From Sulfurovum sp. (lineage in GTDB: Bacteria; Campylobacterota; Campylobacteria; Campylobacterales; Sulfurovaceae): 64,000 nt of DNA. The position numbers were made by a program, and so were the translations under genes. The stretch covers positions 1 through 64,000 of the forward strand of contig JALTVI010000024.1 in the NCBI GenBank assembly GCA_027049035.1, read 5' to 3'. This document shows positions 5,263 to 46,374 of the stretch, piece by piece. The notes under the pieces are model-generated. The model searched no databases and was not told the DNA's origin. It saw nothing but the letters and a program-made list of their open reading frames with translations. The first letter of the stretch is position 1; every line of letters starts with the position of its first letter.

Positions 5263-6583
5263 CCTCTCCATCTTTGGCACAAGCTCCGATGCGGGTAAAA
5301 GTACGCTCACATGGATCATCGGGCGATTGCTGCAAAAAGAAGGCTACAGCGTCGCGCCCTTCAAAGCCCAAAACGTCTCCAACAACGCCCACGTCGCAGA
5401 CGACGGCAGCGAGATCTCCGTTGCGCAACACTTTCAGGCAAAAGCGCTCCGCGTGCCCACTTCCTGGCACAACAACCCCGTTTTGCTCAAATCGGGAAGA
5501 GGCAACGCCGCATCGGTCATCGTGCGGGGCAAGCATCTCAGCGACAAAGAAGTAGGCGACTATTTCCGCGACATCGACACGCTTAAACCCGCCGTCAAAG
5601 AAGCCTTCGCCTACCTCGAAGCACGCTACGACATCGTCGTCGCCGAAGGCGCGGGTTCACCGGTAGAGCTCAACCTAATGGAAAAGGATCTTTCCAATAT
5701 TTTTATCGCTAATGAATTCAAAACAAAAATCCTCCTCGTTGCCGATATCGAAAAAGGCGGCGTTTTCGCCTCAATTTACGGTGTCTATCATCTTTTGCCC
5801 AAAGCGTTGCGACGCAATGTCATCGGGGTGATCATCAACAAATTCAGAGGCGACAGGCGCTTTTTCGACGAAGGTATGCGCATCATCGAAGAGGAGTTTG
5901 GCATCCCCGTGCTTGGCGTGCTGCCGTATGAACCTTTTAACCTCGGCTTTGAAGACTCCCAAAGCCTGCAACACTACACACAGGACTGTACCCGTGCCAC
6001 CCGCCGCGTTGCCGTCATTGCCTACCCCGCCATGAGCAACTACACCGACTTCGAGCCGCTTTTGGCAGATGAGGATGTCTGCGTCACCTTTATTAAGCAC
6101 AACCGTCCGCTTAAAGCGTTCGACTGTGTCATTCTCCCCGGATCCAAACGGGTTTTTGAGGATCTTGCGTGGCTTGAAAAGACGGGGCTCAGGCAACGTA
6201 TCTTTGAAGCCCACCGCCAAAAGCAGACTCACATCGTAGGTATCTGCGGCGGTTTTGAGATGCTCCATCAAACTATCATCGATGAAAAGGGCATCGAAGC
6301 ATCCACCCCCAAAAGGCTAAAAGGTCTGGGGTTTATTAAGGGAGAGATACACTTCCAAAAAGAGAAGATACTCCAAAAAATGGGCGACACTTACGAGATA
6401 CATCACGGCATCTCCAGCACCTACCCTAACGGTTACAAAGATGCCTATATCTATGGTACTTTCAAACACGGGCTTTTTATCGATGATGTGTTTAGAAAGT
6501 ATGAAGCAAAACGCATTGAGCAGTTTGCTGAACAAATGCATCATTACCTTGATGGTGAGAGGCTGCTCAATGCTCTTCGCTGA
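5255..6583 (+). CDS. cobQ: Cobyric acid synthase
   Basis: A 442-residue amidotransferase that amidates carboxylates b, d, e and g of the corrin ring. The N-terminal dethiobiotin-synthetase-like ATPase shows GTSSDAGKST, PFKAQNVSNNAHV, NPVLLKSGRG and EGAGSPVELNL. The C-terminal class I glutaminase shows the nucleophile in VGICGGFEML and the catalytic His in YGTFKHGLF. It is about 40-60 residues shorter than typical CobQ/CbiP proteins (about 485-505). The missing length appears to be in the C-terminal half, and all catalytic motifs remain. It overlaps cobD by 8 bases and cbiB by 14. Confidence 0.92.
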   Translation: MHNLSIFGTSSDAGKSTLTWIIGRLLQKEGYSVAPFKAQNVSNNAHVADDGSEISVAQHFQAKALRVPTSWHNNPVLLKSGRGNAASVIVRGKHLSDKEVGDYFRDIDTLKPAVKEAFAYLEARYDIVVAEGAGSPVELNLMEKDLSNIFIANEFKTKILLVADIEKGGVFASIYGVYHLLPKALRRNVIGVIINKFRGDRRFFDEGMRIIEEEFGIPVLGVLPYEPFNLGFEDSQSLQHYTQDCTRATRRVAVIAYPAMSNYTDFEPLLADEDVCVTFIKHNRPLKAFDCVILPGSKRVFEDLAWLEKTGLRQRIFEAHRQKQTHIVGICGGFEMLHQTIIDEKGIEASTPKRLKGLGFIKGEIHFQKEKILQKMGDTYEIHHGISSTYPNGYKDAYIYGTFKHGLFIDDVFRKYEAKRIEQFAEQMHHYLDGERLLNALR

Positions 6584-7496
6584 AATCGCACTCATCGCCT
6601 ATGTCACCGATCGGCTTCTGGGGGAGTTTCACTTCATTCGACACCCTGTAATCCTAATGGGAGATTATATCCAATGGTTTGAAAAATATTTTTACAAAGA
6701 CAGTATTTTCAGAGGAGTACTTCTGTCCCTCTCTCTCATCACCGTTACGCTGCTTATTATCTACATTATCACCTATATGATCCATTCTCTCCTGCCTCCT
6801 GATTCCTACCTCCTGCCTATTCTATACGGTATCATCGCATCTACGACCATCGCTTCAAAAATGCTTTATGATTCGGTCAAAGACATTCTCACCCATCCGC
6901 ATCACATCAAATATCTCGTCAGCCGCGACACGAAAAGTCTGAGCCAAGCAGAGATCAACAAAGCCGCCGTCGAAACCTACGCCGAAAACCTCTCCGACGG
7001 CGTCATCGCCCCGCTCTTTTGGCTACTGCTTTTGGGACTGCCCGGTGCCTTTGTCTACAAAGCGGTCAATACCCTCGATTCGATGGTCGGCTACCGTACC
7101 CCGCGCTATAAAAAGTTCGGCAAAGCCTCCGCCCACCTTGATGACCTGCTCAACTACATCCCCGCCCGTATCACCGCCCTGCTCATCCTTCTCTTATCTC
7201 CGAAACTTTATAGATCCGCCATCTCCTGCCCGCTACGCTCTACCCTCTTGCACCAAGCCTCCCACCACGACAGCCCCAACGCCGGCTATCCTATCACCGC
7301 CATGGCATTAGCGCTCGGCATTCGCCTCGGCGGTCCTACGCGATATTTCGGGAAAATGAAGGAGAAGGCATATTTTGGTGTGGGTAGAGAGGATATTACG
7401 ACGGAGGATATTCGCTGTGCGTTGGCGTTTCGCAATCGGGTGGATATAGTGATTTTAGGTGGAATAATCATCTATCTGATCATTTTCTTAGCCTAA
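6570..7496 (+). CDS. cbiB: Adenosylcobinamide-phosphate synthase, CbiB
   Basis: A 308-residue polytopic membrane protein that joins the aminopropanol linker to cobyric acid. Family segments include AYVTDRLLGEFHFIRHPVILMG at the N-terminus, SRDTKSLSQAEINKAAVET, AENLSDGVIAPLFW and KAVNTLDSMVGYRTPRY. I chose ATG 6570, inside the end of cobQ, because translation from there begins with the family N-terminus; the upstream in-frame codons fall within cobQ. Next in the pathway order should be cobS, but an AT-rich insertion separates the two. Confidence 0.9.
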   Translation: MLFAEIALIAYVTDRLLGEFHFIRHPVILMGDYIQWFEKYFYKDSIFRGVLLSLSLITVTLLIIYIITYMIHSLLPPDSYLLPILYGIIASTTIASKMLYDSVKDILTHPHHIKYLVSRDTKSLSQAEINKAAVETYAENLSDGVIAPLFWLLLLGLPGAFVYKAVNTLDSMVGYRTPRYKKFGKASAHLDDLLNYIPARITALLILLLSPKLYRSAISCPLRSTLLHQASHHDSPNAGYPITAMALALGIRLGGPTRYFGKMKEKAYFGVGREDITTEDIRCALAFRNRVDIVILGGIIIYLIIFLA

Positions 7497-7514
7497 GTAT
7501 GAATTTAGATAATC

Positions 7515-7537
7515 TATCTCAAAACAACTCTGAGATA
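7515..7537. other. Small inverted repeat behind cbiB
   Basis: TATCTCA and TGAGATA form a perfect 7-bp stem with a 9-base loop just after cbiB, at the left edge of the AT-rich insertion. There is no T-run, so a terminator role is uncertain. It may mark the boundary of the inserted segment. Confidence 0.3.
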
Positions 7538-7604
7538 AGATAGTTTACAGAATCAAGAAAAAAAAGAGCTTGGCAACTAACTTTATGTTTTAAGGATTAT
7601 TCCA

Positions 7605-8855
7605 ATGAAGATAGATTTTCAATCATTTCAACTTAAATTATTAAAATTTTCAAAATATAAAATCTTTGAGGCTGAAGGCAATGAAATAACTTGTAAAGAT
7701 GCCATTAATAAATTAAAGAAACTAAGAAAGAAAGGTGATGAAAAACAAAAATATATCACAACTTTTATCATTTTTGACGAAAAAATTATTAAACGAATAG
7801 ATGAAAGACTCGATAAGTTTACCTTATCTCCATTTTATGCATATGAAATAACGAAAGATAAGTTTAAGATCTTATCGTACTGTTTTGACATATCTGACAA
7901 AAATGCAAAAAATAAATACCATACATTTTTAGCAACAGTAAGCCAAGAAGAAATCAAATGTAAACTTAAAGATGATTTCAGTTTTATAAAACAATACATT
8001 TCACCATTTATCTTTTTATTTACTGGACTTATTTTGTTCTTCACCTATTTAGGCTTTTCTGAATATGGAATTCCCGATAGTTATATTGCAGATATTGCTA
8101 GTATATCATTTTTAATAATTGCTTCCATTATATTCACTTTAATAGTTGTAATAGTATCTATATCAATTGCTTTTTATTTATTAATACCTTTAATTTTATG
8201 TGAAATATTTGGATGTAGTTGGCAAATATTGATTATTGGTAGTGGTATTTATCTATTTTTATTTTTTACTGTTTTAAGAATAAAAAAACCTTTACTTGTA
8301 AGTCAAATAAATACTCTTTGGATAGATTTTATTCGGTCGTTATCAATTGTCATTGGAGTCATCATAATATTTATTTTTGTTTTTTTAATTAGCCAAAGTA
8401 TCCTTTCCAGTTTAATAAAAAATACCAATTTCAATAATAAAACAGCTTATGAATTTATTATGAGTGTTTATTTCTCAAACTACTCTGGGTATCCAAAAAT
8501 ACTCACTAAAAATGAAAAAACATATTATTTACCGGTAAAAGATAATAGATACTATTATCTATATGATGTAGAAGAAGTAAAAAAGAACTACTTTAATCTA
8601 TTATTAAAAAATTATAAAAATAAATTAGATCAGATTTGCTATAGTAAACAAAATAAATTAGAATTTATTCATAGCTATATTCTTGATAATCCATATATCA
8701 AACCTAAACGTTTAAAGGAGCAAATTCCAATCAATACTAAAGATGTAGATATTCATATTGAGGACTTTGATATGTCCAAATTGATTACGCTAAATGACAT
8801 AAATGTATCACTATGTCAAAAAGTTATTAAAAAGCAAACTTCTGAGTCTAAATAA
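7605..8855 (+). CDS. Unrecognised AT-rich membrane protein
   Basis: A 416-residue protein with no motif I recognise. Residues about 1-130 are soluble and very rich in Lys, Ile and Phe. Several membrane segments follow: one near YISPFIFLFTGLILFFTYLG, a long hydrophobic run with about three passes, and one near SIVIGVIIIFIFVFLI. A soluble C-terminal region of about 140 residues with many Tyr, Asn and Lys completes it. Codon use is strikingly AT-rich compared with both neighbouring cobalamin genes, which points to horizontal acquisition. AAGGAT precedes the ATG. It interrupts the cbiB-cobS gene order and is flanked on the right by a degenerate copy of a dispersed inverted-repeat element. No function is proposed. 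Confidence 0.7.
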   Translation: MKIDFQSFQLKLLKFSKYKIFEAEGNEITCKDAINKLKKLRKKGDEKQKYITTFIIFDEKIIKRIDERLDKFTLSPFYAYEITKDKFKILSYCFDISDKNAKNKYHTFLATVSQEEIKCKLKDDFSFIKQYISPFIFLFTGLILFFTYLGFSEYGIPDSYIADIASISFLIIASIIFTLIVVIVSISIAFYLLIPLILCEIFGCSWQILIIGSGIYLFLFFTVLRIKKPLLVSQINTLWIDFIRSLSIVIGVIIIFIFVFLISQSILSSLIKNTNFNNKTAYEFIMSVYFSNYSGYPKILTKNEKTYYLPVKDNRYYYLYDVEEVKKNYFNLLLKNYKNKLDQICYSKQNKLEFIHSYILDNPYIKPKRLKEQIPINTKDVDIHIEDFDMSKLITLNDINVSLCQKVIKKQTSESK

Positions 8856-8866
8856 TTATTAATCAA

Positions 8867-8931
8867 CTCGCTCTCATGCTTCTGTGTAGGAGTGTATGCA
8901 TATTTAACTCATTCCAAAATGTGGGAACGAG
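8867..8931. repeat. Degenerate copy of a MITE-like inverted repeat
   Basis: It begins CTCGCTCTCATGCTTCTG and continues GGAGTGTATGCAT, and ends ATGTGGGAACGAG. Read on the opposite strand it matches the intact element at 46268-46364 (GTTCCCACGC at one end; GCATACACTCC and GAGCGAG at the other). The hairpin stems have decayed. It lies between the AT-rich gene and cobS, so it could mark how the foreign gene arrived. Confidence 0.6.
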
Positions 8932-8998
8932 AATAAAACATTAAGGACACACCATCCGAATCGAAACACTACACTACCTCTACCTCGGACTCAAATCG

Positions 8999-9715
8999 AT
9001 GCTGGCCTACTTTACCCTGCTACCCGTACGCTTCAAAACAAGCGACGTTCTGTCACACCCCAAGGTGATGGGTGCGATGCTCTTTTGGCTGCCGTTGGCG
9101 GGATTGGTGAGTGCGGGCGGGAGTGTGCTCGTCTATCTGCTGCTTGGCAAATTGGGGTGGCTGGCAGCGGTTATTGCAGCGCTGGTCTATCCGATGCTTT
9201 ACGGGTTTTTACATACCGAAGCGGTGGCGGATGTCGCCGATGCACTTTATGCCGCGCATTCGGGCAAGGATGCCTACAGCGTCATCAAGGACCCAACTGT
9301 GGGTGCAATGGGGGTGCTCTGGACAGTGGCGGTAGTGCTACTCAAAACCGTGCTGATCGTCTCTTTGCTCATGCACGGAATGTGGGTGCTTTTTGTCGCG
9401 GCGGCAGTGAGCAGCCGTATGGGGCTGGAGATGCTCTTTTTTACGCAGACATTTCACTCTTCGTTTATCCGAACCTTGCAGCGGGGCTTTAACGGAAAAC
9501 TCTTTGGCAGCAGTATGATGCTCTTTTTGCTTGTCGGGCTTGCCGTAGCGGGAGAGAATTTTTTCCTCATAGTGGCTTTGGCAATGGGCATCAGCTACCT
9601 CGTCGCCACACGTATCGGCAAAGCACTTGGTTTTCTCAACGGCGATGTGCTGGGCACCACGCTGGAAGCAACGGAGACCCTGCTAATGCTTACGGGAGCG
9701 TTGCTGTGGCTCTGA
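8999..9715 (+). CDS. cobS: Adenosylcobinamide-GDP ribazoletransferase
   Basis: A 238-residue polytopic membrane enzyme that joins adenosylcobinamide-GDP and alpha-ribazole to form adenosylcobalamin. Family features include YFTLLPVRF at the start, GFLHTEAVADVADAL with the Asp-rich metal-binding region, and SRMGLEMLFF. The first ATG is at 8999. In-frame codons upstream (8954-8998) encode IRIETLHYLYLGLKS, which resembles a normal CobS N-terminus, but no ATG, GTG or TTG exists between the in-frame stop at 8942 and 8999. The recorded start may therefore be a shortened one. The stop overlaps cobC by 10 bases. Confidence 0.87.
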   Translation: MLAYFTLLPVRFKTSDVLSHPKVMGAMLFWLPLAGLVSAGGSVLVYLLLGKLGWLAAVIAALVYPMLYGFLHTEAVADVADALYAAHSGKDAYSVIKDPTVGAMGVLWTVAVVLLKTVLIVSLLMHGMWVLFVAAAVSSRMGLEMLFFTQTFHSSFIRTLQRGFNGKLFGSSMMLFLLVGLAVAGENFFLIVALAMGISYLVATRIGKALGFLNGDVLGTTLEATETLLMLTGALLWL

Positions 9716-46245: not shown

Positions 46246-46267
46246 AATAGAAGTTGAAAGCTAACTT

Positions 46268-46364
46268 GTTCCCACGCTCTGCGTGGGAATGCGTACTTAA
46301 GTATAAAAACTTACCAATTGATGCTATTCCCGCATACACTCCCACGCAGAGCGTGGGAGCGAGG
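46268..46364. repeat. MITE-like element with inverted hairpin ends, intact copy
   Basis: The left end holds TTCCCACGC-TCT-GCGTGGGAA (46269-46289, 9-bp stem). The right end holds CTCCCACGC-AGA-GCGTGGGAG (46339-46359, 9-bp stem) and then GAGCGAG near 46364. The two ends are inverted repeats of each other around about 50 AT-rich bases, as in a miniature element. A decayed copy lies at 8867-8931. It separates the small secreted protein gene from the convergent nitrate transporter. Confidence 0.8.
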
Positions 46365-46374
46365 AGAAAGTGAA

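Follow-up and report, generated by a model that had tools for sequence, protein, structure and literature searches.

The window, the whole 64,000-nucleotide stretch of Sulfurovum sp. DNA analysed here, carries a cobalamin (cob) operon interrupted by an AT-rich gene, orfX (7605-8855, plus strand), which encodes a 416-residue membrane protein of an undescribed family. Upstream lies cbiB (6570-7496, plus strand), encoding adenosylcobinamide-phosphate synthase (CobD/CbiB), and downstream cobS (8999-9715, plus strand), encoding cobalamin-5-phosphate synthase. Pfam confirmed both neighbours (PF03186, E 2e-89, and PF02654, E 4.6e-28), so the claim of the original prediction that orfX separates cbiB from cobS was correct. 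A histidine-phosphatase gene and then a small cysteine-rich gene follow cobS according to the Pfam scan. The true start of cobS is probably not at 8999 but an AUC codon at 8954, and the inserted stretch therefore comprises about 7497-8953. An AUC start of cobS seems to be a feature of the clade (window 8942-8999; L021 2890-2957 and L022 8660-8731 in the two closest genomes): in all three genomes AGGA is followed by six bases and ATC CGN, the frame conserves LGLKS ahead of the first ATG or TTG, and no ATG, GTG or TTG lies between the ATC and that first ATG or TTG.

The gap between cbiB and orfX (7497-7604) contains a weak hairpin at about 7508-7548 and a ribosome-binding-like AAGGA at 7592-7596. 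A promoter scan covering both strands returned 12 promoter-like sites where shuffles predict 11.5, hence no excess, and no sense-strand terminator was predicted, the one terminator-like site lying on the minus strand inside cobS. With a short gap and no terminator predicted on the sense strand, readthrough from the cob promoter and thus co-transcription of orfX with cbiB and cobS is possible.

The composition of orfX differs sharply from that of the operon. Its GC content is 23.7% (GC3 18.2%), compared with 45-55% (GC3 42-66%) in the seven cob genes measured, and in a 1251-nt sliding scan (50-nt step) orfX overlaps every one of the 30 positions with the lowest GC; the lowest value independent of these is 39.7%. 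As originally predicted, orfX is far richer in A/T than its neighbours, and it is the lowest-GC stretch of its length in the window. The codon-usage distance of orfX to the flanking cob genes is 1.95, whereas the flanking genes themselves are each at 0.73-1.26 from the others; the distance of orfX to island genes of two genomes that probably belong to the Arcobacteraceae (G433 and G466) is 0.81-0.82. The gene is present as a single copy in its own genome.

Among 78 genomes of the genus, orfX was matched in full only in its own; three weak partial matches (G315, G261 and G258; E 1e-4 to 7e-3) were judged chance, two of them having interior stops, and different ORFs occupied the matched places. 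Conservation at this position in related genomes, which would speak against a foreign gene, was not observed, there being no credible copy in the 77 other genomes, including those with the same operon. We compared the cbiB-cobS gap in the 14 genomes which, besides the own genome, had CbiB at E <= 1e-20 (15 of 61 genus genomes searched). The two genes are 26-94 nt apart in seven of the 14. In others the gap holds different genes: a kinase-like gene (G140), cobC (G262), cobP (G279), two coiled-coil-like genes (G253), a flavoprotein gene resembling SQR (G290), or a 128-aa gene together with the same flavoprotein (G295); in G151 a kinase-like gene follows cbiB and cobC precedes cobS. The homoserine-kinase/APH-like gene behind cbiB in G140 and G151 (L012 2379-3188; L060 8146-8934) may act in cobalamin synthesis as a kinase for the aminopropanol-phosphate branch.

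G290 and G295 are the two closest genomes, their cbiB DNA being 91.4% identical to each other and 87-89% identical to that of the window. The flavoprotein in their gap (441 aa; L021 1500-2825 and L022 7273-8598), which we take to have a twin-arginine-like start, is assigned as SQR-like far below the family cut-off. Its best match in the own genome is about 25% identical, so there is no close copy, and relocation of the sisters' flavoprotein to another site in that genome was dropped as an explanation. Because G290 and G295 are closer to each other than to the window, either loss of the flavoprotein in the own genome or gain in the other two is compatible with the data. DNA homology (blastn) to G290/G295 stops at 7441/7459 and resumes at 8967/8952, leaving a stretch without homology at 7460-8951 that takes in the last ~37 nt of cbiB. 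The empty site sought in sister genomes was thus found in the seven more distant members of the genus and not in the closest two, where a different gene fills the gap. Its composition and codon usage, the lack of a copy in the rest of the genus genomes searched and the empty site in distant members support a foreign origin of orfX, and its acquisition from the AT-rich mobile pool is well supported.

The vehicle that had been proposed fared less well. On the right of orfX, the MITE-like repeat was confirmed: 8867-8931 is a decayed copy of the 99-nt inverted-repeat element at 46265-46363 and aligns to it end to end with an internal deletion (score 52 versus 19.5 +/- 3.4 for shuffles; 0/1000 as good). 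The element at 46265-46363 is a near-perfect inverted repeat (fold of 46255-46365, -57 kcal/mol, z -9.4) present at low copy, and further copies or half-copies of it occur elsewhere in the genome, on contigs C63, C85 and C90; its 24-nt repeat unit has five genome matches at up to three mismatches, two of which are the arms of 46265-46363, against none for the reversed control. The small palindrome reported on the left may be chance, the hairpin at 7500-7560 being weak (z -1.5, 17/200 shuffles as good) and the folding of the whole cbiB-orfX gap weaker still (z -0.4, 63/200). No pair of inverted or direct repeats brackets 7497-8953, nor did we find inverted repeats on both sides of orfX with a target-site duplication, as expected of transposon or MITE cargo. 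Likewise, no transposase or integrase was recognised on reading the nearby ORFs, the Pfam scan covering orfX and five neighbours. The relic was rejected as the insertion vehicle, as it is one-sided and G290 has a decayed copy right after cbiB without orfX (1/1000 shuffles as good; none in G295, 364/1000). The sequence gives no sign that the MITE-like relic carried the gene, no unit capable of moving itself was found, and the suggestion that orfX is cargo of a mobile unit at this site was not borne out.

The product of orfX consists of a soluble N-domain (~1-130), a hydrophobic core (~131-273) and a soluble C-domain (~274-416) with SGYPKI and YYYLYD motifs. From the long hydrophobic stretches at ~131-153, 158-227 and 235-273, hydropathy predicts four membrane helices or more, perhaps as many as six. 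No accepted Pfam family (best E 0.068, under the cut-off), no NCBIfam family, none of 5027 PADLOC models (0 at E <= 10), no fitting PHROGs family (best E 0.064) and no fitting PDB sequence (best E 0.89) was found, which agrees with the earlier description of an unrecognised membrane protein of about four helices. Furthermore, the family scans matched no NTPase family, no catalytic site or motif was evident from sequence or predicted structure, and Rfam gave sub-threshold chance matches only. The protein's own sequence matched nothing in viral contigs, plasmids or phages, nor in further genome contigs, and searches of the viral contigs, plasmids and phages with relatives or alignments were likewise negative. 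We found no literature describing the family, which has no name to search by. Structure prediction and remote homology search had been recommended as checks: AlphaFold2 on the single sequence produced poor models (pLDDT 45 for the whole protein, 37.5 for the C-domain), whereas the homology search recovered four relatives.

These relatives come from other families of the same order, two of them certain (38-40% identity, full length) and two remote and linked through the C-domain; the genome samples searched for them overlap. Among 398 genomes of the order, orfX matched its own genome and G433 (2/398; 38% identity, E 1.7e-61, full length). A two-row profile run against 104 genomes of the G433 family added G466 (E 2.8e-169; 3/104 with G433 and a fragment in G479), and a three-row profile run against 397 genomes of the phylum matched five, namely the own genome, G433, G231 (5.8e-11), G368 (5.2e-9) and a fragment in G445. 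With five rows, no further member appeared in the 398 order genomes (4/398, all known) or in 44 genomes of the G231 family (1/44, G231). The G479 match was set aside as chance (105 residues, E 7.8e-4, three internal stops), as were those of G445, a 100-residue fragment with a stop, G134, and G061, where the ORF presumably encodes an apolipoprotein N-acyltransferase-like protein. Alignment with hhalign supported G231 and G368 (E 2.2e-10 and 8.8e-9 over the C-terminal 115-126 columns). orfX and all four relatives have the C-domain signature G-Y-P-[K/R]-I...D...Y-x-Y-D behind a hydrophobic core, and the common residues include G295, Y296, P297, I299, D313, Y318, Y320, D321, C345, Y364 and C404. 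All four relatives are of 19-20% GC. Those of G433 and G466, two genomes that we provisionally place in the Arcobacteraceae, are 71% identical to each other.

The company of the relatives is distinctive. In G433, the relative faces a convergent gene for a 1207-aa YobI-ATPase protein that corresponds to PADLOC Tmn (E 1e-89); a T4SS coupling protein, a MobA/VirD2-type relaxase and a MobC-like gene lie 10-13 kb from it and an AbiEii gene ~13 kb away on the opposite side. This relative itself matched no PADLOC family at E <= 0.1. In G466, a gene for an MCP-type signalling protein adjoins the relative, and a defence island lies within ~12 kb with a relaxase on the opposite side. The island matches PADLOC dCTPase (3e-120, deaminase type), PDC-S21 (DUF4917; 1e-85), REase_II (2e-86) and MTase_II (3e-101, a C-5 methyltransferase), and it also holds an Mrr nuclease and a KAP NTPase; the dense defence island beside the relaxase occupies L045 584-10726. 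The G231 relative starts 5 nt downstream of HepT in a mntA, hepT order, and its stop is overlapped by a gene that we take to be lgt. The G368 relative is located inside an array of repeated VgrG-tail-like modules (Gp5_trimer_C, just under the cut-off). In this array (L055 1-8940) the modules are tandem and closely similar, each followed by different effector-like and membrane genes; the names of the candidate effectors are ones we presume from reading them.

The loci of the G433 and G466 relatives are of 22.2% and 22.4% GC in genomes of 28-29% GC, below all 40 evenly spaced 20-kb background windows (25.7-32.3%). Any of 15 conflict or mobilisation genes occurred in 2 of these 40 windows, a comparison biased by a query set taken from the test loci. 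At E <= 1e-20, PADLOC matched 2 of 80 sampled background proteins versus 4 of the 10 proteins around the G466 relative. Besides the relatives, the two neighbourhoods share only a 26%-identical coupling-type protein; thus the gene seems to travel separately from those around it. No neighbour is constant across the family members, and hence no partner or trigger is implied. The two relatives in G433 and G466 are located at defence islands; orfX itself is solitary, and no defence gene was recognised next to it in the window.

Among known systems, the single-gene membrane proteins of abortive infection and defence islands come closest: like the orfX family, they are multi-pass, sporadic and AT-rich, occur in the defence islands of relatives and have no constant partner. 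Nevertheless, orfX matches none of the 5027 PADLOC models. Tmn, a transmembrane NTPase of the YobI/KAP type that acts in defence (PMC11846954), has membrane segments, as orfX does, and its gene converges on that of the G433 relative, but orfX matches no NTPase family and is one third of the size of Tmn, and no Tmn was recognised beside the other family members in the stretches read. The G231 relative comes next after HepT in an MntA-HepT operon, while orfX has neither gene alongside and cbiB upstream, and so is not the third gene of such an operon. The membrane part of the G231 relative weakly matches EI24/CysZ (PF07264; E 0.0022, 18.6 bits versus a cut-off of 32), a match not seen in the other family members scanned.

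Several explanations can be weighed against these data. It is very improbable that orfX takes part in the cobalamin metabolism of the strain, for example as a membrane partner of CbiB or CobS. The gene has the orientation of the operon that encloses it, and a kinase-like gene also lies between cbiB and cobS in G140 and after cbiB in G151; however, orfX deviates in composition, has no counterpart in the remaining genus genomes searched, even where the operon itself is the same, and is not a conserved gene of the cob operons of relatives, and no cob genes were recognised near the four relatives in the stretches read. An assembly or binning artefact that joined foreign DNA into the operon is equally hard to credit: the genome is a 92-contig draft and the gene occurs in one genome only, but the same operon continues on both sides in the right order within a contig of 85,981 nt, and relatives carry other genes inserted in the same gap.

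More serious is the possibility that orfX is a foreign membrane protein without a role in conflict, such as a small-molecule sensor, a transporter accessory or a surface protein, carried in islands by chance. AT-rich genes tend to cluster in islands irrespective of function, so AT-richness is common to island genes of every kind; moreover, the relatives are few, the protein has no catalytic motif or known domain, and the G466 relative adjoins an MCP-type signalling protein. We nevertheless regard it as a minority reading, given that all four relatives neighbour conflict genes, which are sparse in the sampled windows. Among conflict-type explanations, the main rival is that the family is immunity- or antitoxin-like, neutralises a membrane-active or periplasmic toxin and is retained in orphan copies for protection. 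Orphan immunity genes typically occur as lone copies, with which the lone copies of this family agree; the G368 relative stands in a VgrG-tail-like array with interleaved candidate effector and small membrane genes, and in G231 the relative comes third in a toxin-antitoxin operon. There, however, MntA is the antitoxin of HepT and already fills that role, a 400-aa multi-pass protein is large for such a task, and no common toxin adjoins the five members, which makes an orphan immunity role rather unlikely.

The observations on orfX itself are its foreign composition, its near-uniqueness in the genus, its membership of a family and the company of its relatives; the reading we prefer, with a probability of about one half, is a recently acquired stand-alone conflict-type membrane gene of a rare, undescribed family. 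As the four relatives occur in four unlike conflict contexts, a conflict role is the most economical reading, and the nearest working model is that of the single-gene membrane effectors of abortive infection. The association with conflict genes comes from few events, four relatives of which those in G433 and G466 are close to each other. The original suspicion of a selfish or defence-type gene was borne out in that all four relatives lie among defence, toxin-antitoxin or secretion-weapon genes, at two loci with mobilisation genes; the defence function as such is suggested by this association. According to the preferred reading, the family would circulate among the AT-rich mobile and defence genes of the Campylobacterota, and orfX would have landed in sense orientation in the cbiB-cobS gap, probably through recombination of a short segment rather than by transposition. 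Its product would be an inner-membrane protein in which a soluble N-domain and the conserved C-terminal GYPKI domain flank at least four helices. A phage or a rival might trigger the protein, which would then act on the cell's own membrane in the manner of single-gene abortive-infection membrane proteins.

More tentatively, and with less confidence than in the reading of orfX itself, we propose that the five proteins represent a new family with a role in defence or inter-bacterial conflict ("GYPKI membrane proteins") and are the first of its members to be seen. Each would be a stand-alone membrane effector, and the gene would pass from one kind of locus to another, be it a defence island, a toxin-antitoxin operon or a secretion-weapon array; here it would have been placed under a housekeeping vitamin operon. 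If this is true, expression of orfX would follow cobalamin demand. While the protein family is new to the libraries used, the phenomenon, in which a host operon receives a rare membrane gene of island origin, is of a known kind. The finding adds a compact, testable and unannotated protein family to the defence-island candidates in Campylobacterota. Moreover, it indicates that a single gene of island type can become established within an operon for core biosynthesis, and island-based searches for defence systems would miss such genes.
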